Shown here piece by piece: positions 310 to 20,700 of a stretch of 64,000 bases of DNA. The notes beneath the pieces are model-generated. The model was given only the letters and a program-made list of their open reading frames with translations, had not been told where the DNA came from and made no database searches. The stretch is from Rhodobacterales bacterium. Its GTDB lineage: Bacteria > Pseudomonadota > Alphaproteobacteria > Rhodobacterales > Rhodobacteraceae. The stretch covers positions 1 to 64,000 of the forward strand of contig PDRY01000021.1 in NCBI GenBank assembly GCA_002748265.1, read 5' to 3'. The translations under genes were made by a program, and so were the position numbers. Numbering within the stretch: position 1 is the first letter of the stretch; each line of letters starts with the position of its first letter.

Positions 310-1608
310 CTAGAACTCACTCCGTAAATCTGGCCACTGGTTGCTAAACGTTGCTCTGAGTTGACCGTCCTCCCATGTGACAGTCGCGCTAAGCGGCTGG
401 TCCGCGCAATCCACATAACGGCCAAAACGGGTTGGCTGTGCGGGATCGGACAGGTGGATATACCCCTCCATCCGCGGCATCGCATCAAGTTTGCCGCGCC
501 CTCCGGACGCCCAATCCAGGAGCATGGGCATAATCTGCGTCGAGCTGGTAAGCCCCTGCTCCACCCCGGGCTCTAGTTCGGGCGCCCGGATCATCAAGGG
601 CACGCGCCACGCGGGGTCGAGAATGCTGTCCTTCCCCCAGAGCCCGGCATCGCCCAGCATCTCTCCGTGATCGCCGGTCACGATCACCGTGGTACTGCCC
701 GCCTGTCCCGTGTCGTCAAGCCAATCCAGAAGGCGCCCAAGGTGGTGATCGCATTCCGCAACGAGGCCCAGATAGACTGCCCGCAGGTCCGCGATCTGCG
801 CAGGGCGCAAAGCGCGCGCACGTCCATCGAACCCGTGAAAGAGCGCGCCGTTGGACAGCTCGTGGTGCCAGGCGTCAAAGAAAGGATGATCCTCGGGGCA
901 CGGCGTAGGCGCAGGCATAGCCGCGGCATCGACCATCCCGTTCCACGGCGCGGGCGCCACAAAGGGCGGGTGCGGGCGGATATAGGTCACCATGGCGAAC
1001 CATGGATGATCGCGGCGCGCCTCCAGCCCCTCCAGCACCCGGTCCGTCAGATAGGCCGTATCGCTCTGCGCCGCGTCATATGGTGGCACGCCCCGGATCC
1101 CGCCGGTATCGCTGCGGTAAAGGTCAAAGAACCGCTCTGGCCACGGGCGGGGCAGTTCCACGCCTTGCCGCGCAAGCCAGCCGGGCCATTCAGAGCCCGT
1201 CTCCCACCGCATCTCGACGACTTCGCGAAAGCCCGCCGCAACGCCCTCATAGGAGCGCAGGTCGGGATCGCTGGGGTGCAGCAGGGCCGGGTCGCCCGCG
1301 AAATCGGTGTAGCCAAAGAGCAGCGGCTCCACCCCATGTTTGCGCAGCTCGGTACCCAGCGTGGGCGTGCCGGTTTTGACCGGAAAGCCGTTCATCACCG
1401 CACCATGTTCCGGCCCCGCAAGCCCGGTCAGAAGGCTGGCGCGTGAGGGGCCGCAAGGCACCATGGCGGTGCGGTGCTGCTCATAGACCCGCGACTGCGC
1501 CGCGAGGCGGTCGAAATTCGGCGTCGGCACATGCGCGGCAAGCGCCCCGCGCAGCACATCGGCGCGCAGCTGGTCATAGACCAGGAAGAGCGTGTTGCGG
1601 GCGCTCAT
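310..1608 (-). CDS. Sulfatase-superfamily hydrolase, phosphonate monoester hydrolase-like
   Basis: A 432-residue member of the alkaline phosphatase/sulfatase superfamily. Cys52 sits in CGPSRASLLTG, the C-x-P-S-R formylglycine signature, so a matured formylglycine nucleophile is expected. Metal-ligand motifs are visible at the N-terminus (VYDQLRAD) and late in the protein (VTGDHGEMLGD). The stretch RPHPPFVAPAPW and the general layout match phosphonate monoester hydrolases such as Rhizobium PehA better than choline or aryl sulfatases. It is shorter than PehA (about 510 residues), lacking much of the C-terminal part. Its ATG overlaps the phnX stop (ATGA), so it is translated with phnX and phnW. 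The inferred job is releasing 2-aminoethylphosphonate from an ester before PhnW acts. A plain sulfatase is the alternative. It has no signal peptide, so it should act in the cytoplasm. Confidence 0.8.
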   Translation of the reverse strand: MSARNTLFLVYDQLRADVLRGALAAHVPTPNFDRLAAQSRVYEQHRTAMVPCGPSRASLLTGLAGPEHGAVMNGFPVKTGTPTLGTELRKHGVEPLLFGYTDFAGDPALLHPSDPDLRSYEGVAAGFREVVEMRWETGSEWPGWLARQGVELPRPWPERFFDLYRSDTGGIRGVPPYDAAQSDTAYLTDRVLEGLEARRDHPWFAMVTYIRPHPPFVAPAPWNGMVDAAAMPAPTPCPEDHPFFDAWHHELSNGALFHGFDGRARALRPAQIADLRAVYLGLVAECDHHLGRLLDWLDDTGQAGSTTVIVTGDHGEMLGDAGLWGKDSILDPAWRVPLMIRAPELEPGVEQGLTSSTQIMPMLLDWASGGRGKLDAMPRMEGYIHLSDPAQPTRFGRYVDCADQPLSATVTWEDGQLRATFSNQWPDLRSEF

Positions 1609-2384
1609 GCCTCAAGCCGCTCAATGAGCGCGGGCAGATCGGCCACGCTGTCGATCAGGTGATCGGCCCCGGCGGCGCTCAGCTCTGGCCCGACCCGGTC
1701 GCGGATCGCTTGCTTCTCGGCCTCGCTCAGGGCGGCGGCCTCTTCGACCGTGAGCCCAGCCGCATTGCCCGTCAGCAAAAGCCCAACGGTAACGCAGCCC
1801 GCCGACGCCCCTTCGGCGATGCCGGGCGCGGTGTCGTCGACCTTCAGGATCGCAGCGGGCGGATAGGCGACCAGATCCACCATGGTCTGGTAGATGCCCA
1901 GCGGGCCCGGGCGCCCCTCGGGCAGATCATCCGAGCAGATCAGATTGTCGGGCGCGTAGCCCTGCGCCGCTGCCACTGGCAAGACCCGTTCCATGATCGA
2001 GCGCGTGTAGCCCGTGGTGGAGCCGATCTTGATCCCGCGCTCGCGCAGATAGTGGACCGTCTCCAGAGCGCCGGGGATCAGGTCGGCATAGTCGGCCACG
2101 ACCTCTTCGTTCATCGGCACGAAGACTTCATAGACCTTGTCCACATCCGCATCCGTTGGCGCAGCGCCGTATTTGGCTTCCCATTGGGCTGCGATCTCCG
2201 GGTTATCCATCATGGCGCGGATGTGGTCCCATTTCGCGGCCCCCATCGGCGCGCGGGCTTGGGCGATCGTAGCCGTGATGCCAAAACGCTCAAAGGCTTT
2301 GACGAAGACCCCCATGGGCGCGAAGGAGCCAAAGTCGATCATCGTCCCGGCCCAGTCGAAAATCGCGGCTTTGAACTGGCTCAT
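1605..2384 (-). CDS. phnX: Phosphonoacetaldehyde hydrolase (phosphonatase)
   Basis: This 259-residue HAD-superfamily enzyme splits phosphonoacetaldehyde into acetaldehyde and phosphate. The N-terminal FDWAGTMIDFG carries the nucleophile Asp10. GAAKWDHIRAM carries Lys51, matching the Schiff-base lysine that sets phosphonatases apart from other HAD enzymes. A late DDTAPGIAEG element fits the Mg-binding loop. I chose the ATG at 2384 because AGGAGGT lies just upstream and the start overlaps the phnW stop as ATGA; the longer open frame upstream is read-through of phnW. The stop overlaps the start of the sulfatase-type hydrolase. It forms the second step of AEP breakdown after PhnW. Confidence 0.95.
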   Translation of the reverse strand: MSQFKAAIFDWAGTMIDFGSFAPMGVFVKAFERFGITATIAQARAPMGAAKWDHIRAMMDNPEIAAQWEAKYGAAPTDADVDKVYEVFVPMNEEVVADYADLIPGALETVHYLRERGIKIGSTTGYTRSIMERVLPVAAAQGYAPDNLICSDDLPEGRPGPLGIYQTMVDLVAYPPAAILKVDDTAPGIAEGASAGCVTVGLLLTGNAAGLTVEEAAALSEAEKQAIRDRVGPELSAAGADHLIDSVADLPALIERLEA

Positions 2385-3556
2385 GCGAGCACCTCCTGAA
2401 TACGGCGGCTCTGCGCCAGAACGTCGGGGGATGGCGCGCCCGAGGCGACGCCCATCTCGGAGAGGGTGACGCTGATGGCCGACAGGACCTCGCCCATCAC
2501 GGCGCTGTCGATCTGCCCGATGCACCCGATGCGGAAGCTCTCGGCCTCGGTCAGTTTGCCGGGGTAGATGATGAACCCCCTGCCCTTCAGCGCGTCGTAG
2601 AACCGGTTGAAATCGAACGCCGGATCGGCGGGCGAAAAGAACGTCACGATGATCGGCGAGAGCCACGGATCGGGCAGCAGGGTCTCAAATCCCAGATCCC
2701 GCATCCCGGCGACCAGCAGGTCGCGGTTCGCGGTATAGCGCGCGCCGCGAGCCGCCACGCCGCCTTCGGCCTCATGCTGGCGCAGCGCCTCAAGGAAGGC
2801 CGCAACCACATGGGTCGGCGGGGTGAAGCGCCACTGGCCGTTCGCCTCCATCGCTCGCCATTGCGCGTGCACGTCGAGGCTGAGCGAGAGGCTGTTGCCC
2901 TCGGCGGCGGAAATCTCATCGCGCGGCGCCAGCACAAAGCCAAAACCCGGCACGCCTTCGATGCACTTGTTGGCCGAAGACACCATGGCGGCAAAGCGGA
3001 TCTGACCAGGCTCCACCGGGATCGCGCCAAAGGCGGACATGCTGTCGATCAGCAGTTTGCGCCCGGCGGCCTCCGTCGCGGCTGCGATCTCGGCCAGCGG
3101 GTTGAGGATGCCCGAGGAGGTCTCGCAATGGATCGCGAGCACATGGGTGATGGCGGGATCGGCGGCCAGGGCCTCGGCCACCTCCGGCCCGCGCGGCGGC
3201 AGGTAGTCGCCCTTGTCGATCACCGTCAGCGCCCGCCCCATCTGGCGCAAGGTCTGTGCCGCGCGTTTGCCATAGGCCCCATTGGCCAGCACCAGAACCT
3301 TGCCGTCACGGGGGACAAAGCTGCCCAGCATCGCCTCGACCAGATAGCTGCCCGAGCCCTGCATGGGCACGCAGTCAAACCCCTCTGCCCGTGGCCCAAG
3401 CAGTGCAATCAGCCCCTGCCGGAGAGCCGCCGTCATGGCGCGGAAATCGCCGTCCCAACTGCCCCAGTCCCGCAGCATCGCCTCTTTGGTCGCGGGCGAC
3501 GTGGTCAGCGGGCCGGGGGTGAGCAGATAGGGGTCTGCAATGCGGGGCATGTCCAT
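2381..3556 (-). CDS. phnW: 2-aminoethylphosphonate-pyruvate transaminase
   Basis: A 391-residue fold-type I PLP aminotransferase that converts 2-aminoethylphosphonate and pyruvate to phosphonoacetaldehyde and alanine. The N-terminal LLTPGPLTTS is typical of PhnW. The PLP lysine is Lys197 in SSANKCIEGVPGFGF, with Asp171 of LLIDSMSAFG likely contacting the pyridine nitrogen. The start at 3556 has AAAGGAG seven bases upstream. It is the first gene of the phnW-phnX-hydrolase group, each overlapping the next by four bases. The 111 bases upstream, up to the ABC ATPase gene, contain an ATAG-N7-CTAT inverted repeat that also occurs before the transporter operon. Confidence 0.95.
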   Translation of the reverse strand: MDMPRIADPYLLTPGPLTTSPATKEAMLRDWGSWDGDFRAMTAALRQGLIALLGPRAEGFDCVPMQGSGSYLVEAMLGSFVPRDGKVLVLANGAYGKRAAQTLRQMGRALTVIDKGDYLPPRGPEVAEALAADPAITHVLAIHCETSSGILNPLAEIAAATEAAGRKLLIDSMSAFGAIPVEPGQIRFAAMVSSANKCIEGVPGFGFVLAPRDEISAAEGNSLSLSLDVHAQWRAMEANGQWRFTPPTHVVAAFLEALRQHEAEGGVAARGARYTANRDLLVAGMRDLGFETLLPDPWLSPIIVTFFSPADPAFDFNRFYDALKGRGFIIYPGKLTEAESFRIGCIGQIDSAVMGEVLSAISVTLSEMGVASGAPSPDVLAQSRRIQEVLA

Positions 3557-3619
3557 CAGGCGGCTCCTTTATAATGCCAAGGCCCGGCTATACGAAAAAT
3601 CTACACCCTGAACTCACTC

Positions 3620-3634
3620 ATAGCATTTCGCTAT
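3620..3634. promoter_or_regulatory. Candidate LysR-type operator upstream of phnW
   Basis: ATAGCATTTCGCTAT is an inverted repeat of ATAG around seven bases. It fits the T-N11-A pattern of LysR-type regulators. It lies about 64-78 bases before the phnW start, and a TATAGC-like -10 on the minus strand follows near 3588-3593. The same half-sites with the same spacing occur at 9992-10006 before the transporter operon. The assignment to the LysR protein at 10003-10911 is inference. Confidence 0.5.
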
Positions 3635-3667
3635 ATCGTATGGGCGGGGGTGCCCTCACGCCGAGCC

Positions 3668-5359
3668 CTACTCAGCGGGCTCCATGATGGTCGGTGTCTC
3701 GTGGCCGCCCGGCCCTCCACGCCGCTCCAGCAGCGGGATCGCGCCAATCAGCTTCTTGGTGTACTCCTGCTGCGGGTTGAGGAAAATCTCCTGCACCGTG
3801 CCCTCTTCGACCAGATCACCATGTTTGATGACGACGACGCGGTCGCACAGGTTGGCGATCACGCTGAGGTCATGGGAGATGAACAGGAAGGTGATCCCCA
3901 GATCGTCGCGCAGTTCCTTGAGAAGTTTGAGGATCTCGGACTGCGTGGACACATCGAGCGCCGCAACGGATTCGTCGGCCACGATGAATTTCGGCTCAGA
4001 AATCAGCGCCCGCGCAATGCAGATCCGCTGGCGCTGCCCGCCCGAGAACGCGTGCGGGAAGCGGCGCAGATGGGTGATGTCGATCTTGCAGCGCTCGGCC
4101 ACGCGCTTCACCCGCGCGTCGATCTCCTTCTTGTCCTTGACGAGGCCCGTGGCGATCAGCGGCTCGGCGATGATGTCGCGCACGGTGAGGCGCGGGTTCA
4201 GCGAGGCATGGGGGTCCTGGAAGATCATCTGCGCCATCTGCGCAAACTTGCGGCGCTTGATCTGGCGGGGATGGGTGAATTTCACCGGCGGATCGGTGAA
4301 GAACTCCACCTCACCGCTCGCAATCGGGGTGGCGCCGAGGATGCATTTCCCAAGCGTCGTCTTGCCCGACCCGGACTCGCCCACCAGCCCGATGATACGC
4401 CCCTTGGGCAGGGTCAGGTTGGCGTTCTTAACGGCATGAAAGACGCTCTGATCCCGGCGCCCGCCGGTGTTCATCGGGAACTCGATATTGATCCCGCGCA
4501 CCTCCAGCAACGGCTCGGGCGTCTCCGCGGGCGGGGGCGGCAGCTCGTCCAGATGCGGCAGAGCCTCGATCAGCTCGCGGGTATAGGCGTGGCGCGGGTC
4601 GTAGAGGACGTCATCCGCGAAACCGGCCTCGACCACCTCACCCTTCTTCAGCACCGTCACGCGGTCGGCGATCTTGCCGATGACGCCGAGGTCGTGGGTG
4701 ATGAAGACCATGGACATGCCCATCTGTTCGCGCAGCTCCAGCAGCAGGTCGAGCACCTGCGCCTGAATGGTCACGTCCAGAGCGGTGGTCGGCTCGTCCG
4801 CGATCAGCAGCTTGGGCTGGGTGGACAGGGCCATGGCGATCATCGCCCGCTGGCGCATCCCACCGGAGAGCTCGAACACATACTGATCGAAGCGCACGTC
4901 GGGCATCGGAATGCCCACGCGGTCGAAGAGCTCAATCCCGATCTTGCGAGCCTCCTCGCGCGAGAGGCCGCGATGGATGCGGATGGTCTCGACGATCTGA
5001 TCGCCCAGCCGGATCGCCGGGGCGAAACTGGCCATGGGCTCCTGGAAGATCATGGACACGACGCCCCCATGGACCATCTTCAGCCCCCGGCCCTTCAGCT
5101 TGAGCACGTCGTGATCCGCGCCATCATGGTGCAGCGTCACACGACTGGCCGGGTCGATCACAGCGTTGCCGGGCATCAGCCGCATGATCGTCTTCGAAGT
5201 CACGGATTTGCCGGAGCCACTCTCGCCCACCAGCCCCATGACTTCGCCCTGTTCGACGTTCATGTTGAAATCGCGCACCGCGCTGACCACGCCGCTTTCG
5301 GTGCGAAAGCCGACCGACAGGTTGCGGACATCCAGAATGGGTTTCTTCAGCAGCGCCAT
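3668..5359 (-). CDS. Peptide-type ABC transporter ATPase, two fused nucleotide-binding domains
   Basis: At 563 residues this joins DppD-like and DppF-like domains in one chain. The first half has Walker [10 protein letters not shown], signature LSGGMRQRA and Walker [14 protein letters not shown]. The second has [20 protein letters not shown] and [13 protein letters not shown]. Oligopeptide-type C-terminal extensions follow each domain. I chose the ATG at 5359 (MALLKKPIL), four bases after the upstream permease stop; the longer reading frame would overlap the permease by some 60 bases. It powers the importer formed with the two permeases and the binding protein upstream. Its position directly before phnW suggests a phosphonate-containing substrate rather than ordinary peptides. 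Confidence 0.9.
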
Positions 5360-5363
5360 CGGG

Positions 5364-6593
5364 TCAGCCCTTCCGCTCGGAGTAAGGATCAGCCGCGTCG
5401 CGCAGCGCGTCGCCGACAAAGACAAAGGCGAGGATCAGCATGATGAACACACCCACCGGGATGAACTGCCACGCCATGTTCTGCAAAATGTCCGGGTCCT
5501 GCGCCTTTTGCAGCAGCACGCCCAGAGAGTTGACCGGCTCGGTCAGGCCAAGGCCGAGGAAGCTGAGCGAGGTTTCAGCGAGGATCATGTAGGGGAAGTT
5601 GATGATCGTATCGACGATGATGTAGCTGGTGAAGCTTGGGATCAGGTGGCGGAAGATGATGCGCAGGTTCGAGGAGCCAGCCAGCTTCGCCGCCAGCACG
5701 TAGTCTTGCGTGCGTTCGGTCAGGATATGGGTCCTGAGCCGTCGGCCCAGAGCCGCGAAATCCAGCACCCCGATAAAGACCGCAATGGCGAAGTAGCGCT
5801 GCACCGGGGTCAGGTCGAATTGCGACAGCGCCACCGCACAGGCGAGGTAAATCGGGATCGACGGCACTACGCGCACCGCTTCGGTGATCGACATGATGAT
5901 GCTGTCCACCCGGCCGCCGAAATAGCCCGACACGCCGCCCACCAGAAGCGAGGCCATCAGCTTGAAGAACAGCGCCACAATGGCGATGGAGACCGTTACC
6001 CAGATCGCATGCAGCGTGCGGGCGAAGACGTCTTTGCCGTCTTCATCGGTGCCGAAAAGGTGCAGCTTGCCCTCTTCGGTTACCATGAAATGCCGGTCCC
6101 AGGTGATCTTGAAGACCCCTAGGTTCAACAGCGTATAGTCCCAGCCCTTGCCAAAGAAGGTGATGTAGCGCCGGGCGTCCATGTCCACGTTGAACTTGTT
6201 CTGCCCCGAAGAGCTAAGCGCATCGCCCGAGGTCAGCGCATCGAGCGCGTCCAGATTGCCGCCGCCAAGCGCGCCCAGATCCAGCTTCGCCTCCTCCTTG
6301 GAGTAGGTGTAGACGAAGGGCTGTAGCGAGAAACCGTTTTCGTCCCAGAACCGGATCAGCTGCGGCGCGCCGCGTTTGTAGTCCGGGTCAGCTCCGCGGA
6401 TCGTCGGATCCACCGGTGAGAAGAACGGCGCAAAGAGCCCCATCACCACAGTGATGATCAGCACCCACATGGCGACCACGCCGATGATGTTCTTCATGAA
6501 CCGGCGGCGGATCAGGGTGATCTGACCAGCGGTGTAATAGTCGTCGTCATGCTCTTTCTGGCCCGTGGCCAGAGCGCTCGTCGCATCGGTCAT
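5364..6593 (-). CDS. Peptide-type ABC transporter permease (DppC-like)
   Basis: A 409-residue inner-membrane permease. One transmembrane segment lies at about residues 35-57. A periplasmic stretch of roughly 130 residues follows, long for a DppC protein, then the five-helix core. The transporter-ATPase coupling loop is visible as DYVLAAKLAGSS about 110 residues from the end. TSLSFLGLGL near the C-terminus is characteristic of the DppC/OppC branch. It begins three bases after the stop of the preceding permease and ends four bases before the ATPase start, so the three are co-translated. Confidence 0.88.
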   Translation of the reverse strand: MTDATSALATGQKEHDDDYYTAGQITLIRRRFMKNIIGVVAMWVLIITVVMGLFAPFFSPVDPTIRGADPDYKRGAPQLIRFWDENGFSLQPFVYTYSKEEAKLDLGALGGGNLDALDALTSGDALSSSGQNKFNVDMDARRYITFFGKGWDYTLLNLGVFKITWDRHFMVTEEGKLHLFGTDEDGKDVFARTLHAIWVTVSIAIVALFFKLMASLLVGGVSGYFGGRVDSIIMSITEAVRVVPSIPIYLACAVALSQFDLTPVQRYFAIAVFIGVLDFAALGRRLRTHILTERTQDYVLAAKLAGSSNLRIIFRHLIPSFTSYIIVDTIINFPYMILAETSLSFLGLGLTEPVNSLGVLLQKAQDPDILQNMAWQFIPVGVFIMLILAFVFVGDALRDAADPYSERKG

Positions 6594-6596
6594 GGA

Positions 6597-7784
6597 TCAG
6601 TTCCCCAGAACAGAGCGGCGCACGCGCGGGTCGATCGCCGCCAGCACCACATCGGTGAAAAAGTTGAAGGCGATGACCACCAACGCCACGAGGAAGAGGA
6701 TCGCAGCGGCCAGCTGTTGGTCATTGGTCTGGGCCAGAGCCTCGATCAGAAGGGCGGCGGCATCGGTCAGCCCGATCACCACGGCCACAATCGGCAGGTC
6801 GTTGAAGATCCGCTGCCAGTCGAACCCCACCGAGTTGAACAGCGGCGAGATCGAGTGGCGCACCGGGTATTTCGCCCAAAGCGCCGCGCCCGAGACGCCG
6901 CGCGCACGGGCCGCTTCGACGTAGAGCTTGTTGCTTTCATCGGTGACGAGCGCCCGCACGGTCTGCAATTGCAGCGCGGTGGCGGCCCAGCCGATGACGA
7001 AGATCGGGATCCAGATATGCGCCGCCAGATCCCAGAGCTTGCCGAACTGGAAGCCGCCTTCGAACCAGCCGACATTTTTCCATTCATCCGAGAAGAAGCC
7101 CGACGGAGTCGGCAGTCCCGCCCAGATCAGTGCAAGGATCACGATCAGCGCCAGCAGGAAGTTCGGGATCGCGAGGCCAAGGTAAGAGATCACCCGCAAC
7201 ACCGAATCCAACGCCTTGCGCAGGATCAGACCGAGCGAGCCGAGGATGTTCTGCGCGTCGCTCTTGGCCGGATCTTTGCGCACCCAAGGTTGCGAAATCA
7301 TGTTGGCCGAGAAAATCCCGAAGGGCACGGCGATGAGATAGGACAGCAAGAGGCCGATGATGCAGAACATGAAGCTGACCCAGAACCGGTCGCCCAGAGC
7401 CTGCCCCACCGATTGCCGCTTTGAACAGCTGAACCCCAGATCGCCCTTTAGCGTCAGGTTCGTCGCCCAATTGGCCCAGCGTTGCACCACGCCCTTGTCG
7501 AGCCCCATCCGGGCACGTTCGGCATTAATGTCAGCCTGCGTGATCGTTTCGCCTTGCGAGGTCTTATAGGCGATCATCTTCTCGGCGCAGTCACCGGGGA
7601 TGGTTTCCATCAGTCCAAAGACAATGGCGCTTACCAGCAGCAGCGTCACAAGCGCCATGATGTAGCGGTTGAACACATAGTTCCAATATTGGCTGTGCAG
7701 CGCACGGGCGTAGAGCAGCCCACCAATGATGACGATGACCCAGAGTAGCCAGGTATTCGCCAGAAATCCGGTGATCGCGCCCAT
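6597..7784 (-). CDS. Peptide-type ABC transporter permease (DppB-like)
   Basis: This 395-residue membrane protein is the DppB-type partner. After two N-terminal membrane segments it has RMGLDKGVVQRWANWATN, the usual DppB motif between helices, and a coupling loop YVEAARARGVSG around residue 280. I took the ATG at 7784 because GGAAGGAG lies eight bases upstream; the longer frame runs into the preceding intergenic region. An extra hydrophobic helix before the usual DppB start makes it longer than typical (about 340 residues). It follows the binding-protein gene after 62 bases that hold a strong hairpin. Confidence 0.88.
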   Translation of the reverse strand: MGAITGFLANTWLLWVIVIIGGLLYARALHSQYWNYVFNRYIMALVTLLLVSAIVFGLMETIPGDCAEKMIAYKTSQGETITQADINAERARMGLDKGVVQRWANWATNLTLKGDLGFSCSKRQSVGQALGDRFWVSFMFCIIGLLLSYLIAVPFGIFSANMISQPWVRKDPAKSDAQNILGSLGLILRKALDSVLRVISYLGLAIPNFLLALIVILALIWAGLPTPSGFFSDEWKNVGWFEGGFQFGKLWDLAAHIWIPIFVIGWAATALQLQTVRALVTDESNKLYVEAARARGVSGAALWAKYPVRHSISPLFNSVGFDWQRIFNDLPIVAVVIGLTDAAALLIEALAQTNDQQLAAAILFLVALVVIAFNFFTDVVLAAIDPRVRRSVLGN

Positions 7785-7805
7785 ATCTGCACTCCTTCCA
7801 AAAGA

Positions 7806-7835
7806 GACCCGGGCAGCAGCTCTGCCGCCCGGGTC
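7806..7835 (-). terminator. Strong intercistronic stem-loop between binding protein and permease genes
   Basis: GACCCGGGC at 7806-7814 pairs perfectly with GCCCGGGTC at 7827-7835. There is no T-run. The position, just after the binding-protein stop and before the first permease, is classic for a partial terminator or mRNA-stabilising hairpin that keeps binding protein more abundant than the membrane parts. Confidence 0.6.
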
Positions 7836-7846
7836 GGATTGCAGGG

Positions 7847-9892
7847 TTACTGCTTCAGGAACCACTGGGTCGGGATGTAGGGATAGACCCGGTAGTATTC
7901 GTAGGAAGAGGTCTTCGGCGTGGCGAAGTTCCCCAGCCCGTTGCTGACATAGATCGGGGACACGCCTTTGACGGTGCCGATCATCAGCAACTGGTCGAGC
8001 CACTTGTCCACGATCTGGGTGCCCAGCTCGTTCGAGGCGTCGGAGCCCGCCTCAAGCTGCGTGAACTGGTCAGCCATTTCGCCGATCTCGGTGAAGACGG
8101 CGGGCGGCATCACACCCTCAGCGCCATCGCTGTCGATATACTGCGACCACAGCATCCCGTTGCGCAGCGAGAAGAAGTTGCCAAACGGCGGCTTCAGCGT
8201 GCTGACATCGTTGGACATCACAGCGAGCGGCTGGCCGGAGGTCCAAGCGCCGATGCTCAGGCCGTTGGCGGACTGAGTGCTGCGATACTCGTCAGAGGTA
8301 ACCTCTTTCATCGTCACCTTGATGCCGATGTCGGTCAGGTTGTTGGAGACGATCTCGACCACCTCAGTGGAGATACCCTGAGTGGAGAACTGGAACACCA
8401 GCTCGAACTTCTCCCCATTGGGCAGCTCGCGCACGCCGTCGCCATCGCTGTCGGTCAGGCCCATCTCATCAAGCAGAGCGGCGGATTTGGCCGGATCAAA
8501 CTCGGTGAAGGCGGTGCGCTGTTCCTCGGTGACGAAGGGCGAGGTATCGGCGTCGAACGCGGTGAACTGCGACGGCTGGCCGAGGTTCAGGAACGCAATC
8601 TCGTTGATCTTGTTGCGGTCCAGAGCGTGGGAGGCCGCCTGACGGAAGCGCACGTCGTTGAAGACTTCGCGCAGGACTTCGTTCTTGTCAGTGGCGTTGA
8701 AGGTGATGGTCATCATGCCCACGTTGGGGCGCAGCGCGATGGCGTAGTCGCCCTTTTCGCGGTTCTCCAGCAGCACCGGCGCGGAGGGCAGGTTCACCGC
8801 CTGCGCCTTGTAGTCCACCTCGCCCGCGATCAGCTTCGCGGTCTGGATGTCCTCGTCACCGATGAAGACTTCCTTGATCTCGTTGATGTAGGGAAGCTGG
8901 TTCCCGGCGGTGTCGATCTGGAAGAAATAGGGGTTGGCGACCAGACGGCGGCCTTCGACGCTGTCTTCGATGACGATGAAGCTTTCCAGCGTCGGCGCGG
9001 TGGCGGGGTACCCTGCTTCGACCATCGCTGCGGTCTGATCGACGGATTTGTTGATCGGGGTCGGGATGTCTTTCCAGTCGGACTGGCCGTAGTAGTGGAT
9101 AACCGCCTCGTAGCCATTGGCAAAACCAAGGCTCTGAGCCAGCGCATCGGCGTCGGCGTTCACCGCGGGGTGGAACTGGCCGATCACGTGCTTGGGCTGG
9201 AAGGGTTGGGCATAGTCGGTGGCGAACATCGACAGCAGGCCGGGGGTCGGCGCCGCAAGGGTGATGGTCAGCTCGGTCGGGCTGGTCACCTCGATCTGCC
9301 AGGGCTCACCGCCGGACAGGAAGCGGTCCTTCGGCTTGGCCGTCACGTTGGTGTCCATGACCAGGTTGTCATACCAGAACTTCACGTCCTCGGCGGTAAA
9401 GGGCTCTCCGTCGGACCACTTGTGGCCTTCGCGCAGCTCAACCTTCAGCTCGGTGAAATCTTCGTTGAACGCAAAGCTTTTGGCGACGTTCGGCACGATC
9501 TGGGTCAGATCATCATTGTAGCGGGTCAGGTTGACGTGGCGCACGGACAGGAGGTCAGAGGTGCCCGCTTCGGTCGCCTTAGAGATCCCGTCGAACACGC
9601 CGCCATAGGTGCCGATTTCGGCATAAGGCGCGATGACCAGAGGCTCTGCAGGCAGGCGGTCGGCAACGCCCGGCAGATCAGCGGGGTTGCCAGCAATGCG
9701 CGCGTTCAGCGCGGCGATCTCGGGGTTATCCTGAAACGTCAGCTCACAGCTGTTGGCGGCCTCGAATTCCGCTTTCTCGAAGAGGTGCGGATAAGCGCCG
9801 CCAGCGTCCGGGCCGGTAACGGTCGGGCAGTCAGCCGCAAAAGCGACAGAACAGGTCAGAGCCAGCAGGCTCGTGGAGAGAAATAGTTTCAT
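7847..9892 (-). CDS. ABC transporter periplasmic binding protein, family 5 (peptide/opine type)
   Basis: A 681-residue secreted protein with a signal peptide (MKLFLSTSLLALTCSVAFA, cleavage near residue 20). The mature part carries SBP_bac_5 family features: LREGHKWSDGEPFTAEDVKF near residue 155 and a later DVRFRQAASHALDRNKI. It is longer than typical DppA (about 530), as in family-5 proteins that bind larger or unusual ligands. It leads the transporter operon, with GAGGGACC just before the ATG. The ligand is not shown by sequence. The phnW-phnX-hydrolase genes downstream suggest an AEP ester or AEP-containing compound. It is not a PhnD- or AepX-type phosphonate binding protein. Confidence 0.88.
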   Translation of the reverse strand: MKLFLSTSLLALTCSVAFAADCPTVTGPDAGGAYPHLFEKAEFEAANSCELTFQDNPEIAALNARIAGNPADLPGVADRLPAEPLVIAPYAEIGTYGGVFDGISKATEAGTSDLLSVRHVNLTRYNDDLTQIVPNVAKSFAFNEDFTELKVELREGHKWSDGEPFTAEDVKFWYDNLVMDTNVTAKPKDRFLSGGEPWQIEVTSPTELTITLAAPTPGLLSMFATDYAQPFQPKHVIGQFHPAVNADADALAQSLGFANGYEAVIHYYGQSDWKDIPTPINKSVDQTAAMVEAGYPATAPTLESFIVIEDSVEGRRLVANPYFFQIDTAGNQLPYINEIKEVFIGDEDIQTAKLIAGEVDYKAQAVNLPSAPVLLENREKGDYAIALRPNVGMMTITFNATDKNEVLREVFNDVRFRQAASHALDRNKINEIAFLNLGQPSQFTAFDADTSPFVTEEQRTAFTEFDPAKSAALLDEMGLTDSDGDGVRELPNGEKFELVFQFSTQGISTEVVEIVSNNLTDIGIKVTMKEVTSDEYRSTQSANGLSIGAWTSGQPLAVMSNDVSTLKPPFGNFFSLRNGMLWSQYIDSDGAEGVMPPAVFTEIGEMADQFTQLEAGSDASNELGTQIVDKWLDQLLMIGTVKGVSPIYVSNGLGNFATPKTSSYEYYRVYPYIPTQWFLKQ

Positions 9893-9941
9893 GGGAGGTC
9901 CCTCTGGGATGGCAATCGCGCAAACCCTAAGCCCACGAACC

Positions 9942-9959
9942 GTAACAGTTTCACGTCAG
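9942..9959 (-). promoter_or_regulatory. Possible Pho box upstream of the binding-protein gene
   Basis: Read on the minus strand, CTGACGT-GAAA-CTGTTAC resembles the PhoB pattern of two CTGTCAT-like heptamers spaced by four bases (about five of seven matches each). It lies about 50-67 bases before the start codon, a fitting place for a phosphate-starvation promoter. The match is imperfect and was found by eye. Confidence 0.3.
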
Positions 9960-9991
9960 ACCCACCGCAAACCCATGAAGCGAGGCGCGAT

Positions 9992-10006
9992 ATAGTAAAA
10001 AGCTAT
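9992..10006. promoter_or_regulatory. Candidate LysR-type operator upstream of the transporter operon
   Basis: ATAGTAAAAAGCTAT has the same ATAG-N7-CTAT half-sites and T-N11-A layout as the element at 3620-3634. It lies about 100 bases before the binding-protein start and overlaps the stop codon of the LysR gene. This is a plausible spot for an activator site serving the transporter promoter. Confidence 0.5.
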
Positions 10007-10911
10007 GAAAAATCGTCCGAGGCGGAGGCGTCTTTCCGCGCCTCAACGCGGTCGAACATGGCGCGTACCGGAGCGACATGCTTCATCGCGGGCAAGGTGA
10101 CCAGATAGTGATTGGCCCGCAGGTTCCTGTCGCGGATCGGGCGAAACAGCAGATCGGGCTCTTGTCCGCACTCCGCCTCCAGTGCGATGCCGAGCCCCGC
10201 ACCTCCTCTGACCAGCGCCGCGATAGAGCCCCAGGAACCAAGCCCAAGGATGGTGGTAACATCTGCCTGAGCGATCCGCGCCGCAGCCTCAAAGAGCCGC
10301 CGCGTGCCAGAGCTATGCTCGCGTTGCAGCAGCTTTTCGCCCGCGATATCTGACCAGTTCAGAGCGGATTTAGCAGCAAGCGGATGGCTCTGAGGCAGGA
10401 CCACGCCGATCTGATTTGGGGTCACCAGGGTCCCAAACAGCCCCTCAGGACATTCAAGTGCCGTCACGAAGCCCAGATCAAGCTCGCCTGATCGGATAAG
10501 AGGAAGCAAATCATGGGTCGCCATGGCCCGCGCCTCCAGATCAACTCCGGGATGGATCTGGGCGAATTCGGCGACATAGGGGATCGCGATTTGATAGGTC
10601 GTATAGCCCAACCGCAAGGTCGTCTGCTTCAAATCCCGGTGACCGGCCAACGTGTCTTCGATCTCCGCGCTGAGCGCCAACAGGGCAACAACCTGCCCCC
10701 GAATTGCGTCGTAGAGCGGCGTTCCTTTCACCCGCGCGCCCTCTTTCTCGACGAGCTTGCAACTGAAATGGCTTTCCGCCGCCAAGACGAGGTTCGAAAC
10801 GGTTGGCTGCGACACCCCCAAAGCTTGCGCACCGGCAGTATAGCCTCCGTGGCGGACAACGAGCTCAACCGCCTGAAGCTGTTTCAATGAAATCTGAACG
10901 CCCTTTGACAT
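10003..10911 (-). CDS. LysR-family transcriptional regulator of the phosphonate/transporter locus
   Basis: A 302-residue protein with an N-terminal winged helix-turn-helix (residues about 8-65, with GGYTAGAQALGVSQPTVSNL) and a LysR substrate-binding domain from about residue 95. GGGGAGAGG precedes the ATG at 10911. It lies on the same strand just upstream of the transporter genes, not divergent as many LysR regulators are. The ATAG-N7-CTAT elements at its 3' end and before phnW are natural candidate targets. The inducer is unknown, possibly AEP or the imported ester. The 194 bases between it and the MATE gene hold no further gene. Confidence 0.88.
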   Translation of the reverse strand: MSKGVQISLKQLQAVELVVRHGGYTAGAQALGVSQPTVSNLVLAAESHFSCKLVEKEGARVKGTPLYDAIRGQVVALLALSAEIEDTLAGHRDLKQTTLRLGYTTYQIAIPYVAEFAQIHPGVDLEARAMATHDLLPLIRSGELDLGFVTALECPEGLFGTLVTPNQIGVVLPQSHPLAAKSALNWSDIAGEKLLQREHSSGTRRLFEAAARIAQADVTTILGLGSWGSIAALVRGGAGLGIALEAECGQEPDLLFRPIRDRNLRANHYLVTLPAMKHVAPVRAMFDRVEARKDASASDDFS

Positions 10912-11105: not shown

Positions 11106-12506
11106 CTACCAGCCCCGTCGCCCGGTGACGACGTGTTCACGCCTTTGCGCGGCAAAGGCATCTGTCGGCGCGGCAGCGGGAGACGCACGGACCAAACGCT
11201 GCACCATCATCCAGGCAATAAGACCAAAGACCACCCCACCCAATGCCTGTCCGATCAGTACTCCGGCGGCGCCCATCACCTGCGCGCCGATGACCGCAGG
11301 CACCCAGGTGCCGATGCTGTGGCGCCCCCAGTTCACCCAGGTCGAGTAGATCGGGTGGCCCAGATTGTTAAAGCTGGCATTGGCGACGAAAATCAGCCCG
11401 TTGAAAAACGACAGCAGTGCCAGCGGGCCGCAGAACAGATAGATCAGCGCCCGTGTCTGGCCCTGGGCGTCAAACAACGCAGCGATAGGCGCGCGCAACA
11501 CGAAGAGCAGCGCCGAGACCAGCAGCACATAGACCCCGGTAAAGAGCACCCCGGCCACGAACGCTCCACGCACTCGGTCAGGCCGTCCGGCACCGAAGTT
11601 CTGGCCGATGATCGGGCCGATCGCGCCCGATAGCGCGAAGATCGCGGCAAAGGCCACCGGCATCAGCCGCCCGATCACCGCCATGCCCGCCACGGCATCG
11701 GTGCCGAACTGGGCGATCTGGCGGGTCACAATGGCATTGCCCACCGGGGTGGCGATATTGGTCAGAACCGCTGGCAGGGCAATGGCCGAAATGGCCGCGA
11801 AATTTGCCATAATTCCCGCCAGCGAGGGGCGCGCAAATCCCTGATGCACGCGCATGGCGGGCGCCAGCGCCAATGCTGCCATGGTCAACCGCGCCAAAAC
11901 CGAAGCGATCGCCGCCCCATCCAGCCCAAGCCCAAAGGCGAAAATCAACAGGGGGTCCAGCACGGCGTTCACCCCGCCGCCATAGAGGGTGCACATCATC
12001 GAACGTCGCGCGTCGCCGTGAGCACGCAGAACCGCCATGGCGGTCATGGCAATCCCCATCACCGCCATTGAGGGCAGGATAAAGCTGACATAGCGCGCAG
12101 CCAGGTCCAGAACGGCGCCCTCGGCACCGAACAAGGCCAGCACGGCATCGCGGTTGATCAGAAGCCCCACCGGCACGACCACGCCAGTGATCACGGCGAA
12201 CCCGACCACGCTGGTGGCGTAGTCCCCGGCCTTGCCGCGATCCCCTGCCCCAATGGAGCGCGCAACAAGCGAGCCCGCGGCGATCGACAGGCCGATGTTG
12301 ATGGCGTTGGTAAAAAACAACAGCGTCGCGGCATACCCGACAGCAGCGGCCAAAGCATCGTTCCCGAGCATGGAAATAAACACCATATCAACGAAATCGA
12401 CAGCAAAAATCGCCAGCAGCCCGACGCTGGCCGTAAGCGACATGCGCATGACATGACCCATCAGGCTGCCCGTCAAGAAGACGGCGTCATTCGATGCATC
12501 GGCCAT
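11106..12506 (-). CDS. MATE-family efflux protein
   Basis: A 466-residue membrane protein with about 12 hydrophobic segments in two similar halves. Typical MATE elements are visible, such as MVFISMLGNDALAAAVGYA in the first helices and IGRLMPVAFAAIFALSGAIG, followed by GQNFGAG, in the second half. Members export organic cations or drugs using Na+ or H+ gradients; the substrate cannot be told from sequence. AGGAG six bases before the ATG supports the start. It follows the Kef-type antiporter gene after 12 bases, so the two are probably co-transcribed. Confidence 0.88.
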   Translation of the reverse strand: MADASNDAVFLTGSLMGHVMRMSLTASVGLLAIFAVDFVDMVFISMLGNDALAAAVGYAATLLFFTNAINIGLSIAAGSLVARSIGAGDRGKAGDYATSVVGFAVITGVVVPVGLLINRDAVLALFGAEGAVLDLAARYVSFILPSMAVMGIAMTAMAVLRAHGDARRSMMCTLYGGGVNAVLDPLLIFAFGLGLDGAAIASVLARLTMAALALAPAMRVHQGFARPSLAGIMANFAAISAIALPAVLTNIATPVGNAIVTRQIAQFGTDAVAGMAVIGRLMPVAFAAIFALSGAIGPIIGQNFGAGRPDRVRGAFVAGVLFTGVYVLLVSALLFVLRAPIAALFDAQGQTRALIYLFCGPLALLSFFNGLIFVANASFNNLGHPIYSTWVNWGRHSIGTWVPAVIGAQVMGAAGVLIGQALGGVVFGLIAWMMVQRLVRASPAAAPTDAFAAQRREHVVTGRRGW

Positions 12507-12518
12507 AGCGCGCTCCTG

Positions 12519-14399
12519 TTAGCTGTGGTCGTTGTCCCGAGCTGAGCGCATCCGCGTGTTGAGTTGCTCCTCCCAAGAATCCATCATCTCTTCGAATTTG
12601 GCCATATAGGGTTTGTTCTCGACCGCGGGCGTATCAATGTCCCAAAGGTCGGCCACCTCGACCATGATCGCACGATCCATCGCTTCAAACTCCTCAGTCA
12701 TCCGCTGCGCCGTTTCGCGATCATGTCCCAAAGCCTCGAGCGTCGAGCGCGCCGTGCGCAGCGAACCGTCGTAGGTCTCGCGGATGATGTCACGGCAACC
12801 AACCGACCAAAGGTCATAGACATGATTGCGGTCGTAGGCGCGGGCGATGACATGCACGTCAGGGAAGTGCTTGCACACATATCGCGTCAATTCTGTCGTC
12901 GCCTCTTTGCCGTCAATCGCGACGACCAGGATCTTTGCATCCTTGATGCCTGCGGCATCAAGCAGATCAGGCCGCGTGACGTCACCGAAATAGACCTTGA
13001 GCCCAAAGCGGCGCAGCATGGCCAGTTGTTCCTGGCTATAGTCGATCACCGTGGTGGGATAACCCGCGCCGCGCAGCGCCCGGTTTACGATGCCGCCAAA
13101 ACGGCCGTGCCCGGCAACAATGACCCCACCCGGCTCCTGGATCGTGTCGGCCTCCAGCTCTTGTTCTTCCGAGTATCGGGGCGCCACTAGGCGGTCGTAG
13201 ACGATGAACAGCGCAGGGGTCAGCAGCATGGAAATCGCCACGACCAGCAGCAGCACATCTGCGACCTCAGACGGGATAACCGCATTGGCGACGGTAAAGC
13301 TCAGCAGCACAAAGCCAAACTCCCCCGCTTGCGCCAGCCCAAGGGCAAACAACCAGCGGTCTGCTCCGGTCAGCTTGAACACCCGCGCAAGCCCGTAAAG
13401 CACCGCGCATTTGATCGCCATCAGCCCCAGCACCAGCCCGGCCACCATGGCGAAATGCGCGCCCAGCAGAGCAAAGTCGATGCTGGCGCCGACGGTGATG
13501 AAAAAGATACCCAGGAAAATGCCTTTAAAGGGGGCAATGTCGCTTTCCAGCTCATGGCGATATTCGCTGCCCGCCAAGACAACGCCAGCCAAAAAGGTGC
13601 CCAAAGCTGGGGACAGCCCCACCATTGTCATCAGCAGCGCAATGCCCAGCACCATCATCAGGGCGGTGGACACGAATAGCTCGCGCAAACGCGCACGAGC
13701 GACAAAGCGGAAGATCGGCGTGGTCAGATAGTTACCCATGAACACCACAGTGCCTATCGCCGCCAACGTCACCAGCGCGGTCTGCCAGCCGCTCAATCCC
13801 TCGACGAGGCTCAGATTGAGCCCGCCACCATGATCCCCTCCATGGGCTGAGTCAGCGCCATGGTGGAGCGCTTCGGTCAGCTCGGGCAAAGCCAGAAGCG
13901 GCACCAGCGCAAGGATCGGGATCACGGCGATATCCTGAAACAGCAGCACCGAGAAGCTCGCTTGCCCGCCATCGGAGCGCAGCAATCCCTTTTCACCCAG
14001 CGTCTGCTGCACGATCGCGGTCGAGGACAGAGCGAAGACCAACCCAATGGCCAACGCCACGCTCCACGGCTGACCCAGAGCCATAGCCGTGGCCATCACC
14101 ACCAACGCGGTGACCCCCACTTGCGCGCCTCCCAGAAGAAAGATCCGCGTGCGCATCTCCCACAAAGCGCGCGGGTTCATCTCAAGCCCGATCAGGAACA
14201 GCATCATGACCACGCCGAATTCAGAAAAATGCTGCAGCGCCACCACATCGGCTCCGGCCCACAACAACAGCGGGCTGATCGCCACCCCCGCGATCAGGTA
14301 GCCCAGCACCGAGCCCAAGCCAAACCGCGTGGCAATGGGCACGGCGATCCCGCCAGCCAGAAACAGTGTGAAGGTGATGAGCATGAATTCTGCGGTCAT
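12519..14399 (-). CDS. Kef-type monovalent cation/proton antiporter with RCK domain
   Basis: A 626-residue antiporter of the CPA2 family. The N-terminal ~400 residues are a 12-13 helix Na+/H+ exchanger domain, including LSSTAIVQQTLGEKG and LLFQDIAVIPIL. The C-terminal part begins a TrkA-N/RCK Rossmann domain at about residue 425 with GGVIVAGHGRFGGIVNRAL and an acidic residue ending the second strand (VIDYS). This fits KefB/KefC-like, nucleotide-gated potassium efflux. A histidine/glycine-rich loop (HHGADSAHGGDHGGG, about residue 180) may bind metal or sense pH. No KefF/KefG partner lies nearby. The start has AAGGA seven bases upstream. Confidence 0.87.
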   Translation of the reverse strand: MTAEFMLITFTLFLAGGIAVPIATRFGLGSVLGYLIAGVAISPLLLWAGADVVALQHFSEFGVVMMLFLIGLEMNPRALWEMRTRIFLLGGAQVGVTALVVMATAMALGQPWSVALAIGLVFALSSTAIVQQTLGEKGLLRSDGGQASFSVLLFQDIAVIPILALVPLLALPELTEALHHGADSAHGGDHGGGLNLSLVEGLSGWQTALVTLAAIGTVVFMGNYLTTPIFRFVARARLRELFVSTALMMVLGIALLMTMVGLSPALGTFLAGVVLAGSEYRHELESDIAPFKGIFLGIFFITVGASIDFALLGAHFAMVAGLVLGLMAIKCAVLYGLARVFKLTGADRWLFALGLAQAGEFGFVLLSFTVANAVIPSEVADVLLLVVAISMLLTPALFIVYDRLVAPRYSEEQELEADTIQEPGGVIVAGHGRFGGIVNRALRGAGYPTTVIDYSQEQLAMLRRFGLKVYFGDVTRPDLLDAAGIKDAKILVVAIDGKEATTELTRYVCKHFPDVHVIARAYDRNHVYDLWSVGCRDIIRETYDGSLRTARSTLEALGHDRETAQRMTEEFEAMDRAIMVEVADLWDIDTPAVENKPYMAKFEEMMDSWEEQLNTRMRSARDNDHS

Positions 14400-17723: not shown

Positions 17724-20700
17724 ATGAGATCAGCAATGAGCCCCAAGTCACTCGACACACTACTTGATGCGCTTCGGACATCTCTCCGAGAGCAGGACTT
17801 GGAAAGAAGCGTTGTCAAAACCTGGGTGTTCCAAGACATCTGCTGCGTTGCTGAGTTTTCTCACAAGGGAGCACGGATTGGGTTTGACCTGACCCCCAGC
17901 AAGAGCGGGGTGACACTGGACGTGGTTCCGCGCGATGGCCTTGAGACAGCCGCGCGTTTCAACGCTCAGTTTCCGTCCAAAACCCGCCTTCTGACCAACG
18001 CATCCCTTCCCGCCGCGACACAGAAAATGTCAGACATCTTTGAAGATCTCTCCAAGGAGCTCGATGCCGTCCGCAAAAAGCAGCGCTTGAAGGTCGGGGT
18101 TCTCACTCTGCCGCTGAGCAACAATTACGGGAACAATCTTCAGGCCTTCGCGTTGATCGATACCGTGCGCGGCCTGGGCCACGAAGCCATCTTGATCAAT
18201 CGCCGCACCGCTTTCAAAGAGCCAAGCGCAAGCAAAGCCCAGCCAAGCAAGAAGGCGAAAGCGCCCCTCACGACAAAAAATATTGATATTGAAAGCGAAT
18301 TTTCTGACAGAGCCGCGTTCATCAATGAGCATATCGGCCCGGTTTCCGTACAATTTGAAGATTCCAAGCAGCTCGCGGAGAGTATTGATCGGTATGGCTT
18401 CGATGCGATCATCGTCGGCAGTGATCAGGTTTGGAGACCAAAGTTTGCCAAGCCGATGCTCGGAGACTTCCTGCTCACATTCCTTAAGGATGACTCCCCC
18501 ACACGGCGCATCAGCTACGCCGCATCCTTTGGCACCGAGAAATGGGAATACCCCACGTGGCTGACAAATCAGTCCAAGCCATTCATCGCGAAATTCGACG
18601 CCGTATCGGTGCGAGAGGACTCCGCCGTCGCGCTCTGCCGCGAACACTTTGACCGACATGCACAGCATGTCCTGGATCCCACATTGTTGGTCCCGCGCGA
18701 GCGCTACATTGAGGTGTTTCGCGCGAAGGTTCCCCCGCAATTGGATCCGCGCATCGTCACCTACATCCTGGATCCATCGCCCGACAAAACCGCCTTGCTC
18801 AACGCGCTGTCGGGGACGCTCGATCTTCCCGTGCACGGTGTAGATGGCCAGCGGTATGAATCCTTGGATCCCCTGGCGGGCGCGCCTGAAGCACCAAATG
18901 AACACTGGCTCTCGGAGATTCACTCCGCATCATTCGTTGTGACGGATTCCTTTCACGGAATGGTCTTTTCTATTTTGTTCCAAAGGCCCTTTATCGTTTA
19001 CGCCAATCGCTCTCGGGGGATGGCGCGATTTACGTCCCTGCTGACAGCACTCGGCCTGCGCGACCGGCTCGTGGAATCTTTCTCGCCCGAGGTCAGTCAG
19101 CGCGCGATGGCCCCCATCGATTGGGAAGCGGTCCAGGAACGTTTGGACCACATGCGCAGCGTGTCCATGACGTTCCTGCAAGAGGGATTGACCGGCGAAT
19201 CTAAAGACGCGGGAAAGCCGATCGCGCCAAGCACGCTCTCCGCAGCACCTGTCCTCTCCTCCGTGCCCCATGCGTTGGGTGTGCACTGCACCGGCTGCGG
19301 CGTTTGCGTCTCGGAGGCGCGCGGCACCCTGGAGATGGCGTGGAACACCGACGGCTTCCGAGTGCCTGTCGCCGTGTCGAAAAAGGTGGACATGCAGGCA
19401 CGCCGCGTCTGCCCGTTCAATCCATCTCCGGAGCCGGAGGTCGCCAATGAGGACGTCATCGGTCGGACACTGTTCGGAGACGCCAGAAACTACGAGGCGG
19501 ATGCCGGCCACTATGAGCGTGCCTATATTGGCTACAGCAACGCGTTTCGCAGCAGCTCATCCTCCGGTGGGATGGCGACCTATCTCTTCGAGCGCATACT
19601 AACGCTTGGGCTCGTCGATTGTCTGTTCGTGGTGCGCGGTGATGCCGCTGGCGGGTATAGCTATGCCCGCTTTGACAAGTCCGAAGACATTCGCACCATG
19701 TCGAAAACGCGCTACGTCCCTGTTTCGATGGAGCAGCTTTTCGAGATCATCGACAACACGACCGACCGGATTGCAATCTCAGGCGTTGCCTGCTTCATCA
19801 AAGCAATCCGATTGAAGCAGCACTATAACCCAGAGCTGAAACAGCGCATTCCATTTCTGATCGGCATTGTGTGCGGCGGTCTGAAGAGCAAGCACTACAC
19901 AGATTTTCTCGCCAGCAGCGCCGGGGTTTCGGGGCATTGGAGCAGCGCGGAATACCGGGTCAAGAACCCAAAGCGCAATGCCAGCGACTACAGCTTTTCC
20001 GTTTCAGACGAGCAGCAAAAGCAACATCACCTCCGCATGAGAAACCTAGGAGACATGTGGGGTGCAGGTTTGTTCAAATCGAAGGCCTGCGACTATTGCA
20101 CCGATGTTCTGACCGAGCTTGCGGATGTGTCTCTTGGGGACGCGTGGCTTCCTGCCTACAATCGCGACGGCTTGGGAAACAGCGTTGTCGTCACGCGCAG
20201 CCTACTGGCGGACAGCCTGATCCAATCGGGGATGCTGGCGGGAGAGCTGACCCTCGCCGAGACCCCGATCAGTGAGGTTGTGCGCTCTCAGCAAGGGGGG
20301 CTGGACCACAAACAAAAAGGCCTCAAGTTTCGAAAATTTCTCGCAGCGCAGAACGAAGGCGTATCAGCCCCAAATGTCCGGCCGCGCGTGCTCTGCGATG
20401 TGACCGCAGGCTATATGTTGGTGCAGATCCTCAGAGAACGCGTTCGCAGCAAGAGCATTCGTCACTGGAATGAGACCGGCATTGCGCAGCCGTTCTCCCG
20501 GCGCATGATGGCGTCGCGGCGGCTGCTGGATGACGTGACCGTCCTGCGCAAGCAGCATGCGCAGACCATCACCGAACTCGCGCGCACCGCGCTCGCGAAC
20601 CCGTACGCTTTGCCGCAAACTGAATTCGCATCAGCACGCCTCATGTTGCGGTGGTTCCGTCTCAAAGTGCACACGGGCGAAATCTCCGTCGACAACTTGC

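Follow-up and report, generated by a model that had tools for sequence, protein, structure and literature searches.

The first 64,000 bases of contig PDRY01000021.1 (C20; 95,232 bases), from a 2.79-Mb, 88%-complete Rhodobacterales genome, form the stretch analysed here, hereafter the window, and carry eight genes with intact reading frames, all on the reverse strand, for a LysR-type regulator, a solute-binding protein (SBP), two permeases, a fused ATPase, PhnW, PhnX and a hydrolase of the phosphonate monoester hydrolase (PMH) type. We propose, with a probability of roughly 0.7 and on the grounds of sequence and gene context, that this operon scavenges a small ester of 2-aminoethylphosphonate (AEP), R-O-PO2-CH2CH2NH3+, which would make it an operon for AEP catabolism to which the import and cleavage of an ester have been added. 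A family-5 binding protein and its ATP-binding cassette (ABC) importer would bring the ester into the cytoplasm, where the hydrolase, using a formylglycine nucleophile and metal, would cut the P-O-R linkage to give AEP and an alcohol R-OH, a step suggested by its active site and its context. PhnW would then transaminate AEP to phosphonoacetaldehyde and PhnX would cleave the C-P bond to give acetaldehyde and phosphate, both reactions being established for the PhnW and PhnX families, and the LysR protein would probably regulate the operon. The most plausible R would be a glycerol or sugar residue, as in the head groups of phosphonolipids or in phosphonoglycans. It is ligand, pathway direction and regulation that we infer here.

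Hydrolase identity and association with AEP genes

A preliminary description of this DNA had likened the hydrolase to PMHs, and the likeness holds, as the solved proteins that score best against it are 4upk (296 bits), 2vqr (235) and 2w8s (224). Both 4upk and 2w8s were deposited as phosphonate monoester hydrolases; the latter is presumably BcPMH, and the sequence of the former agrees over the aligned stretch with the PMH of Ruegeria pomeroyi DSS-3 (called SpPMH). Eight residues that we take to be catalytic, under what we take to be RlPMH numbering (D12, C57, R61, N78, H218, D324, H325 and K337), are all kept in the window, their letters having been checked on the alignment. The CxPxR formylglycine motif is present as CGPSR, and because its cysteine would need a formylglycine-generating enzyme (FGE), it matters that the same genome holds an FGE gene (PF03781, 239 bits, contig C56). 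Two positions are reported to split PMHs from arylsulfatases, namely Tyr105 and Thr107 of RlPMH, which is 2vqr, with Asp at the latter in D-PMHs, against Lys101 and His103 of SpAS1 (PMC5488252). In an alignment of 145 proteins the window hydrolase has Tyr/Asp at these positions, as in D-PMHs, and not Lys/His, and a sulfatase reading was rejected on these letters. The 48 same-family matches above 200 bits comprise 46 with Tyr/Asp, one with His/Asp and one with Tyr/Thr; Lys/His is found in 12/12 lower-scoring controls, being established for these 12 of the 46 lower-scoring places. Plasmid PMHs (n = 9) have Tyr/Asp in seven cases, Tyr/Thr in one and Tyr/Ser in one, and PMHs from outside the family (n = 75) have Tyr/Asp in 58, Tyr/Thr in 13 and Tyr/Ser in four. 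The assignment as a PMH-type enzyme, with no signal sequence discernible by eye, is supported, and activity on phosphonate esters is predicted.

It had also been suggested that PMH-type hydrolases be sought in other genomes together with phnWX and family-5 ABC genes, and such co-occurrence emerged strongly from 248 genomes of the same family (distinct genus codes, the window's own genome included), in which the PMH clade was taken as matches of at least 200 bits and the family-5 binding protein (SBP5) as matches at E <= 1e-100. The active-site split into Tyr/Asp and Lys/His agrees with the 200-bit line. The PMH clade was found in 48 genomes, SBP5 in 43, phnA in 34 (35 places) and phnX in 19 (20 places); phnA and phnX were not found together in any genome, and their union comprises 53 genomes. 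PMH coincides with phnA or phnX in 38 genomes, with 10 carrying PMH only, 15 AEP genes only and 185 neither (odds ratio 47, p = 2e-23), that is, AEP genes occur in 38/48 PMH genomes versus 15/200 others. The importer behaves likewise, SBP5 and PMH being found together in 35 genomes, SBP5 only in eight, PMH only in 13 and neither in 192 (p = 3e-24), or in 35/48 PMH genomes versus 8/200 others, and the corresponding counts for SBP5 and AEP genes are 35, 8, 18 and 187. When the 17 genomes with neighbouring PMH and AEP genes are removed, 21 genomes have both, 10 PMH only, 15 AEP genes only and 185 neither (p = 4e-13), 21 of the 31 PMH genomes keeping AEP genes elsewhere. AEP genes are present in 2/33 genomes with lower-scoring matches only and in 13/167 with no match. 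PhnJ of carbon-phosphorus (C-P) lyase, present in 118 genomes, showed no genome-level association with PMH (22/48 PMH genomes versus 96/200 others, p = 0.87). Since PMH tracks AEP genes and not PhnJ, the genome-level link is to AEP-specific routes and not to phosphonate use in general. Xsc was too common for a matched control, with 154/248 genomes over the cut-off, and a strong match in about 35/48 PMH genomes, counted by hand from the genome table, is a mild excess at most.

Neighbourhoods of PMH genes

The neighbourhoods of 48 family loci were compared, which are all of the 50 places above 200 bits except the window itself and one duplicate; neighbours were called by tblastn with hand-set bit thresholds and a crude open reading frame caller, some loci are cut by contig ends, and two weak loci from a contig search with the hydrolase were left out of the counts. 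SBP5 was found near PMH in 25 loci, phnW in 15, phnX in nine, PhnA in seven, PbfA in six, a sodium/phosphate (Na/Pi) cotransporter in 11 and a DeoR/GlpR regulator in 10, and none of these seven was detected at the same thresholds in the 12 control loci. An AEP gene lies near PMH in 17/48 loci, and an AEP gene together with SBP5 in 13/48, while a LysR homologue over threshold was found in 4/48. Counted from the other side, PMH stands within 10 kb of 10/20 phnX places, the window being one of the 10, where 0.09 would be expected from genome sizes, and within 10 kb of 26/44 SBP5 places, some of them in loci without AEP genes. phnX is directly adjacent to PMH in five loci (L035, L038, L043, L079 and L081) and overlaps it in the window; the separation is 7-9 kb in three others (L050, L052 and L054).

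The downstream genes vary among relatives. PMH is also joined by PhnW-PhnA with PbfA, and by PhnY in L058, and in L079, L120 and L146 the gene order is a TIGR03364 oxidoreductase, phnX and PMH. TIGR03364 is mentioned once in the text available of PMC10590968, which describes a PbfD2 and PhnX pathway without PhnW, and the TIGR03364 proteins of these three loci may be PbfD. C-P lyase genes are neighbours of PMH in L074 and L075, with PhnI found in the former locus and PhnJ in both genomes. On a quick PMH tree (no bootstrap, 66 rows; L038, L039, L064 and L087 left out), the label of having an AEP gene nearby needs 10 changes, at least eight of which are forced by starred branches, so the pairing of PMH with AEP genes has been formed or broken repeatedly.

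Three further observations concern single loci or groups of loci. In L064 (genome G138; 7996-9429 and 11123-12823) an amidase gene lies between phnX and PMH and is followed by another SBP_bac_5 protein, an arrangement that would suit the processing of an AEP ester carrying an amide. A gene for a GntR/UTRA regulator stands directly beside PMH in L074. MlaD-like lipid transport proteins occur near PMH in L047, L098, L101, L159, L164, L165, L168 and L172, divergently in two Ruegeria records, and a lipid link is possible.

A glutamine-synthetase (GS) family gene, with no AEP gene nearby, is present in six of the 48 loci. Four of the six, and Ruegeria conchae, have further Fe-type alcohol dehydrogenase (Fe-ADH) or N-formylglutamate-amidohydrolase-like genes, and the same importer orthologue lies near PMH in 4/6. 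The set of Fe-ADH, GS and amidohydrolase-like genes resembles the gamma-glutamyl-ethanolamide route of Phaeobacter, as far as that route is set out in the available part of PMC10132767. These sister loci suggest that the same importer and hydrolase handle the phosphodiester analogue; the simplest common cargo would be R-O-PO2-CH2CH2NH3+ for the phosphonate or R-O-PO2-O-CH2CH2NH3+ for the phosphate.

The whole operon is found in the same order on plasmid pSC52_2 of Rhodobacteraceae SC52 (CP049030.1), from a sea-cucumber intestine, where two ATPase genes stand instead of the fused one. A search of plasmids for relatives of the window SBP gave 110 records, nearly all from Rhizobium, at about 30% identity among the matches listed. 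Outside the family, 66/385 genomes of the class matched, two of which were dropped (the window's genome and a family member), and all 75 places of the other 64 were covered. An AEP gene lies within about 10 kb in 7/75 of these PMH loci, from six family codes, and an SBP5-type protein near 7/75, one of them weak and without permeases. RlPMH (L100) and the PMHs of L144, L160, L162, L167, L169 and L171 stand beside a different family-5 importer, which makes the coupling to an importer wider than the AEP-linked loci.

The operon in the window and its binding protein

The preliminary description had placed a LysR gene, a family-5 importer, phnW, phnX and a CGPSR enzyme of the sulfatase superfamily on one strand, with four-base overlaps among the last three, and this layout is borne out (Table 1), the overlaps lying at 2381-2384 (phnW/phnX) and 1605-1608 (phnX/hydrolase). 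Its importer needs one correction: the family-5 (Opp/Dpp-type) set is complete, with SBP_bac_5, two permeases and two ATPase domains, and the two domains belong to one gene. Start positions for permease B, the ATPase and phnX were chosen by us.

Table 1. Genes of the proposed AEP-ester operon.
Gene product	Position	Strand	Support
LysR-type regulator, distantly related to the LysR subfamily of AEP catabolism	10003..10911	-	Pfam HTH_1 and LysR_substrate
Family-5 periplasmic solute-binding protein (SBP5), 681 aa, N-terminus signal-like by eye	7847..9892	-	PF00496, 174 bits
ABC permease B, 395 aa, ATG at 7784 (putative start)	6597..7784	-	PF00528/PF19300
ABC permease C, 409 aa	5364..6593	-	PF00528/PF12911
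ABC ATPase with two fused domains, 563 aa, ATG at 5359	3668..5359	-	PF00005 in two stretches, oligo_HPY
phnW, 2-aminoethylphosphonate:pyruvate transaminase	2381..3556	-	PRK13479 and TIGR02326, over cut-offs
phnX, phosphonoacetaldehyde hydrolase	1605..2384	-	TIGR01422, over cut-off
D-type PMH hydrolase, CGPSR formylglycine site, Tyr/Asp signature, short C-terminus, 432 codons	310..1608	-	

PhnW and PhnX exceed the NCBIfam equivalog cut-offs (PRK13479, 541 versus 296; TIGR02326, 462 versus 401; TIGR01422, 341 versus 220), and the two equivalogs of the PhnW-PhnX AEP pathway stand adjacent in one operon. The LysR protein, at 140 bits, falls below the cut-off of 341 for TIGR03339, the LysR subfamily of AEP catabolism. 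The hydrolase gene ends 309 bases from the contig end, and so the downstream side of the operon is out of view. The phosphoenolpyruvate (PEP) mutase model TIGR02320 scores at best 38.7 bits against a cut-off of 319.55, so there is no sign of own phosphonate synthesis within this incomplete (88%) genome. Two PhnJ genes lie on contig C28 of the same genome, and AEP freed there could also take another route. Elsewhere in the window, at 17724-20768, a single open frame joins a polysaccharide pyruvyl transferase domain and an FrhB/FdhB C-terminal domain.

As for the cargo, the nearest solved relatives of the SBP by profile are the pectin-binding SPH1118 and 5ipw (named oligopeptide-binding), followed by alpha-galactoside- and chitin-oligosaccharide-binding proteins, which hints at a sugar-sized ligand. 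The ligand-contacting residues given for SPH1118 (PMC9314435) do not look conserved in the window SBP, in an alignment read by eye, and for this reason no sugar ligand is claimed. We do not favour a peptide ligand, since the hydrolase is from a family of ester hydrolases and oligosaccharide binders are among the nearest SBPs, 5ipw and some others being named only as peptide-binding. Of the cargoes first suggested, AEP esters find support in the co-occurrence and the active-site letters, and peptide fragments do not.

Rival readings and comparison with known systems

Several points weigh against an AEP-ester operon. At the genome level, the 200-bit split was drawn after the matches had been seen, the p-values overstate independence since the genomes are related, and 15/53 genomes with AEP genes lack the PMH clade. 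Linkage is incomplete as well: only 7/35 phnA places have PMH within 10 kb, and in 17/48 family loci neither AEP genes nor SBP5 nor GS-family genes lie near PMH (two of the 17 adjoin C-P lyase). Looser clustering grouped the class-III aminotransferases of three or one control loci with PbfA. Within 12 kb of SpPMH in R. pomeroyi DSS-3 there is neither an AEP gene nor SBP5, 68/75 PMH loci outside the family have no AEP gene nearby, and nine plasmid loci (of 44 matching records) have AEP genes in one (pSC52_2) and SBP5 in two. The window hydrolase itself scores 286 against the cut-off of 900 of the PehA equivalog NF045661, which RlPMH exceeds (982) and SpPMH likewise falls short of (443). It is fast-evolving, with an end branch on the quick tree of 1.1 versus a median of 0.3. 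Its alignment shows a gap of 18 columns, and its C-terminus stops where 21/21 aligned relatives continue, so that roughly 40-60 of their final residues are missing from it; no recognisable continuation was found in other reading frames. The tail takes part in oligomer contacts in PMHs (PMC5870055), and this C-terminal oligomer-contact tail is absent from the window enzyme. From the long branch, the shortened C-terminus and the position at a contig end it could be argued that this copy is decaying and that the strain uses AEP without ester cleavage, though relatives use esters; we consider this rather improbable, given that the 432-codon frame is intact and that the compared catalytic residues and the four-base coupling to phnX are kept.

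A different reading takes importer and PMH as a general module for scavenging phosphodiesters such as glycerophosphoethanolamine, with AEP genes as neighbours through shared nitrogen and phosphorus regulation and phosphonate esters not among the substrates. For PMHs, activity on phosphodiesters has been reported besides that on phosphonate monoesters (PMC5649143), and the loci with GS-family and ethanolamine-type genes, R. conchae among them, would fit, as would DeoR/GlpR near 10/48 loci and a glpD homologue in one of the 48 and in Aureimonas sp. AU20, whose annotation also lists glpK. Near PMH, however, AEP genes outnumber GS-family genes (17 versus 6 of 48), the two were never found in one locus, and the adjacency or overlap of phnX with PMH, together with the genome-level odds ratio, leaves this reading unlikely. 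That the importer carries free AEP, the hydrolase having an unrelated or auxiliary role, is distinctly improbable: known AEP users do have free-AEP importers, AepXVW, AepSTU and AepP (PMC8316502), and in three of the 10 linked phnX loci, those with the 7-9 kb separation, PMH is on the other strand, but the SBP, of 681 residues, is of family 5 and has oligosaccharide binders among its solved relatives, and SBP5 accompanies PMH in 35 genomes and lies within 10 kb of it at 26/44 SBP5 places, including loci without AEP genes. That the hydrolase acts on amino-alkyl sulfates, as a choline sulfatase or arylsulfatase, is hardly credible: the PF00884 Sulfatase match and weak chol_sulfatase and arylsulfatase scores speak for it, and the Tyr/Asp letters, the PMHs as best PDB matches and sulfatase equivalog cut-offs that are unreached speak against it.

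Extending the AEP-ester reading beyond the window, we put forward tentatively, and at slightly less than even odds, that D-type PMHs and a dedicated family-5 importer form a widespread alphaproteobacterial module for scavenging 2-aminoethyl head-group esters, with exchangeable downstream genes: phosphonate (AEP) heads would be served by PhnWX, PhnWAY with PbfA, PbfD-type with PhnX, or C-P lyase, and phosphate (ethanolamine) heads by gamma-glutamyl-ethanolamide genes. If true, this module would give the PMH family its natural role and would be a route, as yet without a name, by which AEP esters enter the marine phosphorus cycle, and lipid- or glycan-bound AEP, besides free AEP, could feed the phosphorus and nitrogen cycles via a defined importer and hydrolase. 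PMHs have served as a model family for catalytic promiscuity, described by laboratory substrates (PMC5870055, PMC5488252), and with their genome-wide link to AEP breakdown the natural substrate can be tested directly.

A literature search that did not extend to subscription papers found, in the portions of text available, no account that combines a PMH with both phnW/phnX and a family-5 importer. A precedent is the proposal that a PMH/PEH of Sulfitobacter might cleave esters of marine polysaccharides and so supply C-P lyase with phosphonates (PMC5649143); the release of phosphonates from esters is shared with our scheme, whereas that enzyme is tied to C-P lyase and to methyl- and hydroxyethylphosphonate esters, and the section on PEH includes no importer or phnWX linkage. 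With RlPMH (2vqr), SpPMH (4upk) and 2w8s, the window enzyme shares the formylglycine motif, the metal ligands and Tyr at 105, with Asp at 107 as in D-PMHs, and it differs by its short C-terminus, its phnWX operon and its sequence, which across the shared columns is 40% identical to that of the R. pomeroyi enzyme. The PhnW-PhnX phosphonatase clusters with ancillary PbfA/PbfD genes (PMC8154272, PMC10590968) resemble the window in having phnW and phnX, here over curated cut-offs, and the ester hydrolase and the family-5 importer of the window are additions, the available text of those papers naming neither of the two; among its relatives, PMH also joins PhnW-PhnA-PhnY with PbfA, and the TIGR03364 oxidase with PhnX. 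Finally, the AepXVW, AepSTU and AepP systems (PMC8316502) likewise provide uptake that serves AEP catabolism, but AepX and AepS share pfam13343, whereas the window SBP belongs to PF00496 and is accompanied by Opp-type permeases.

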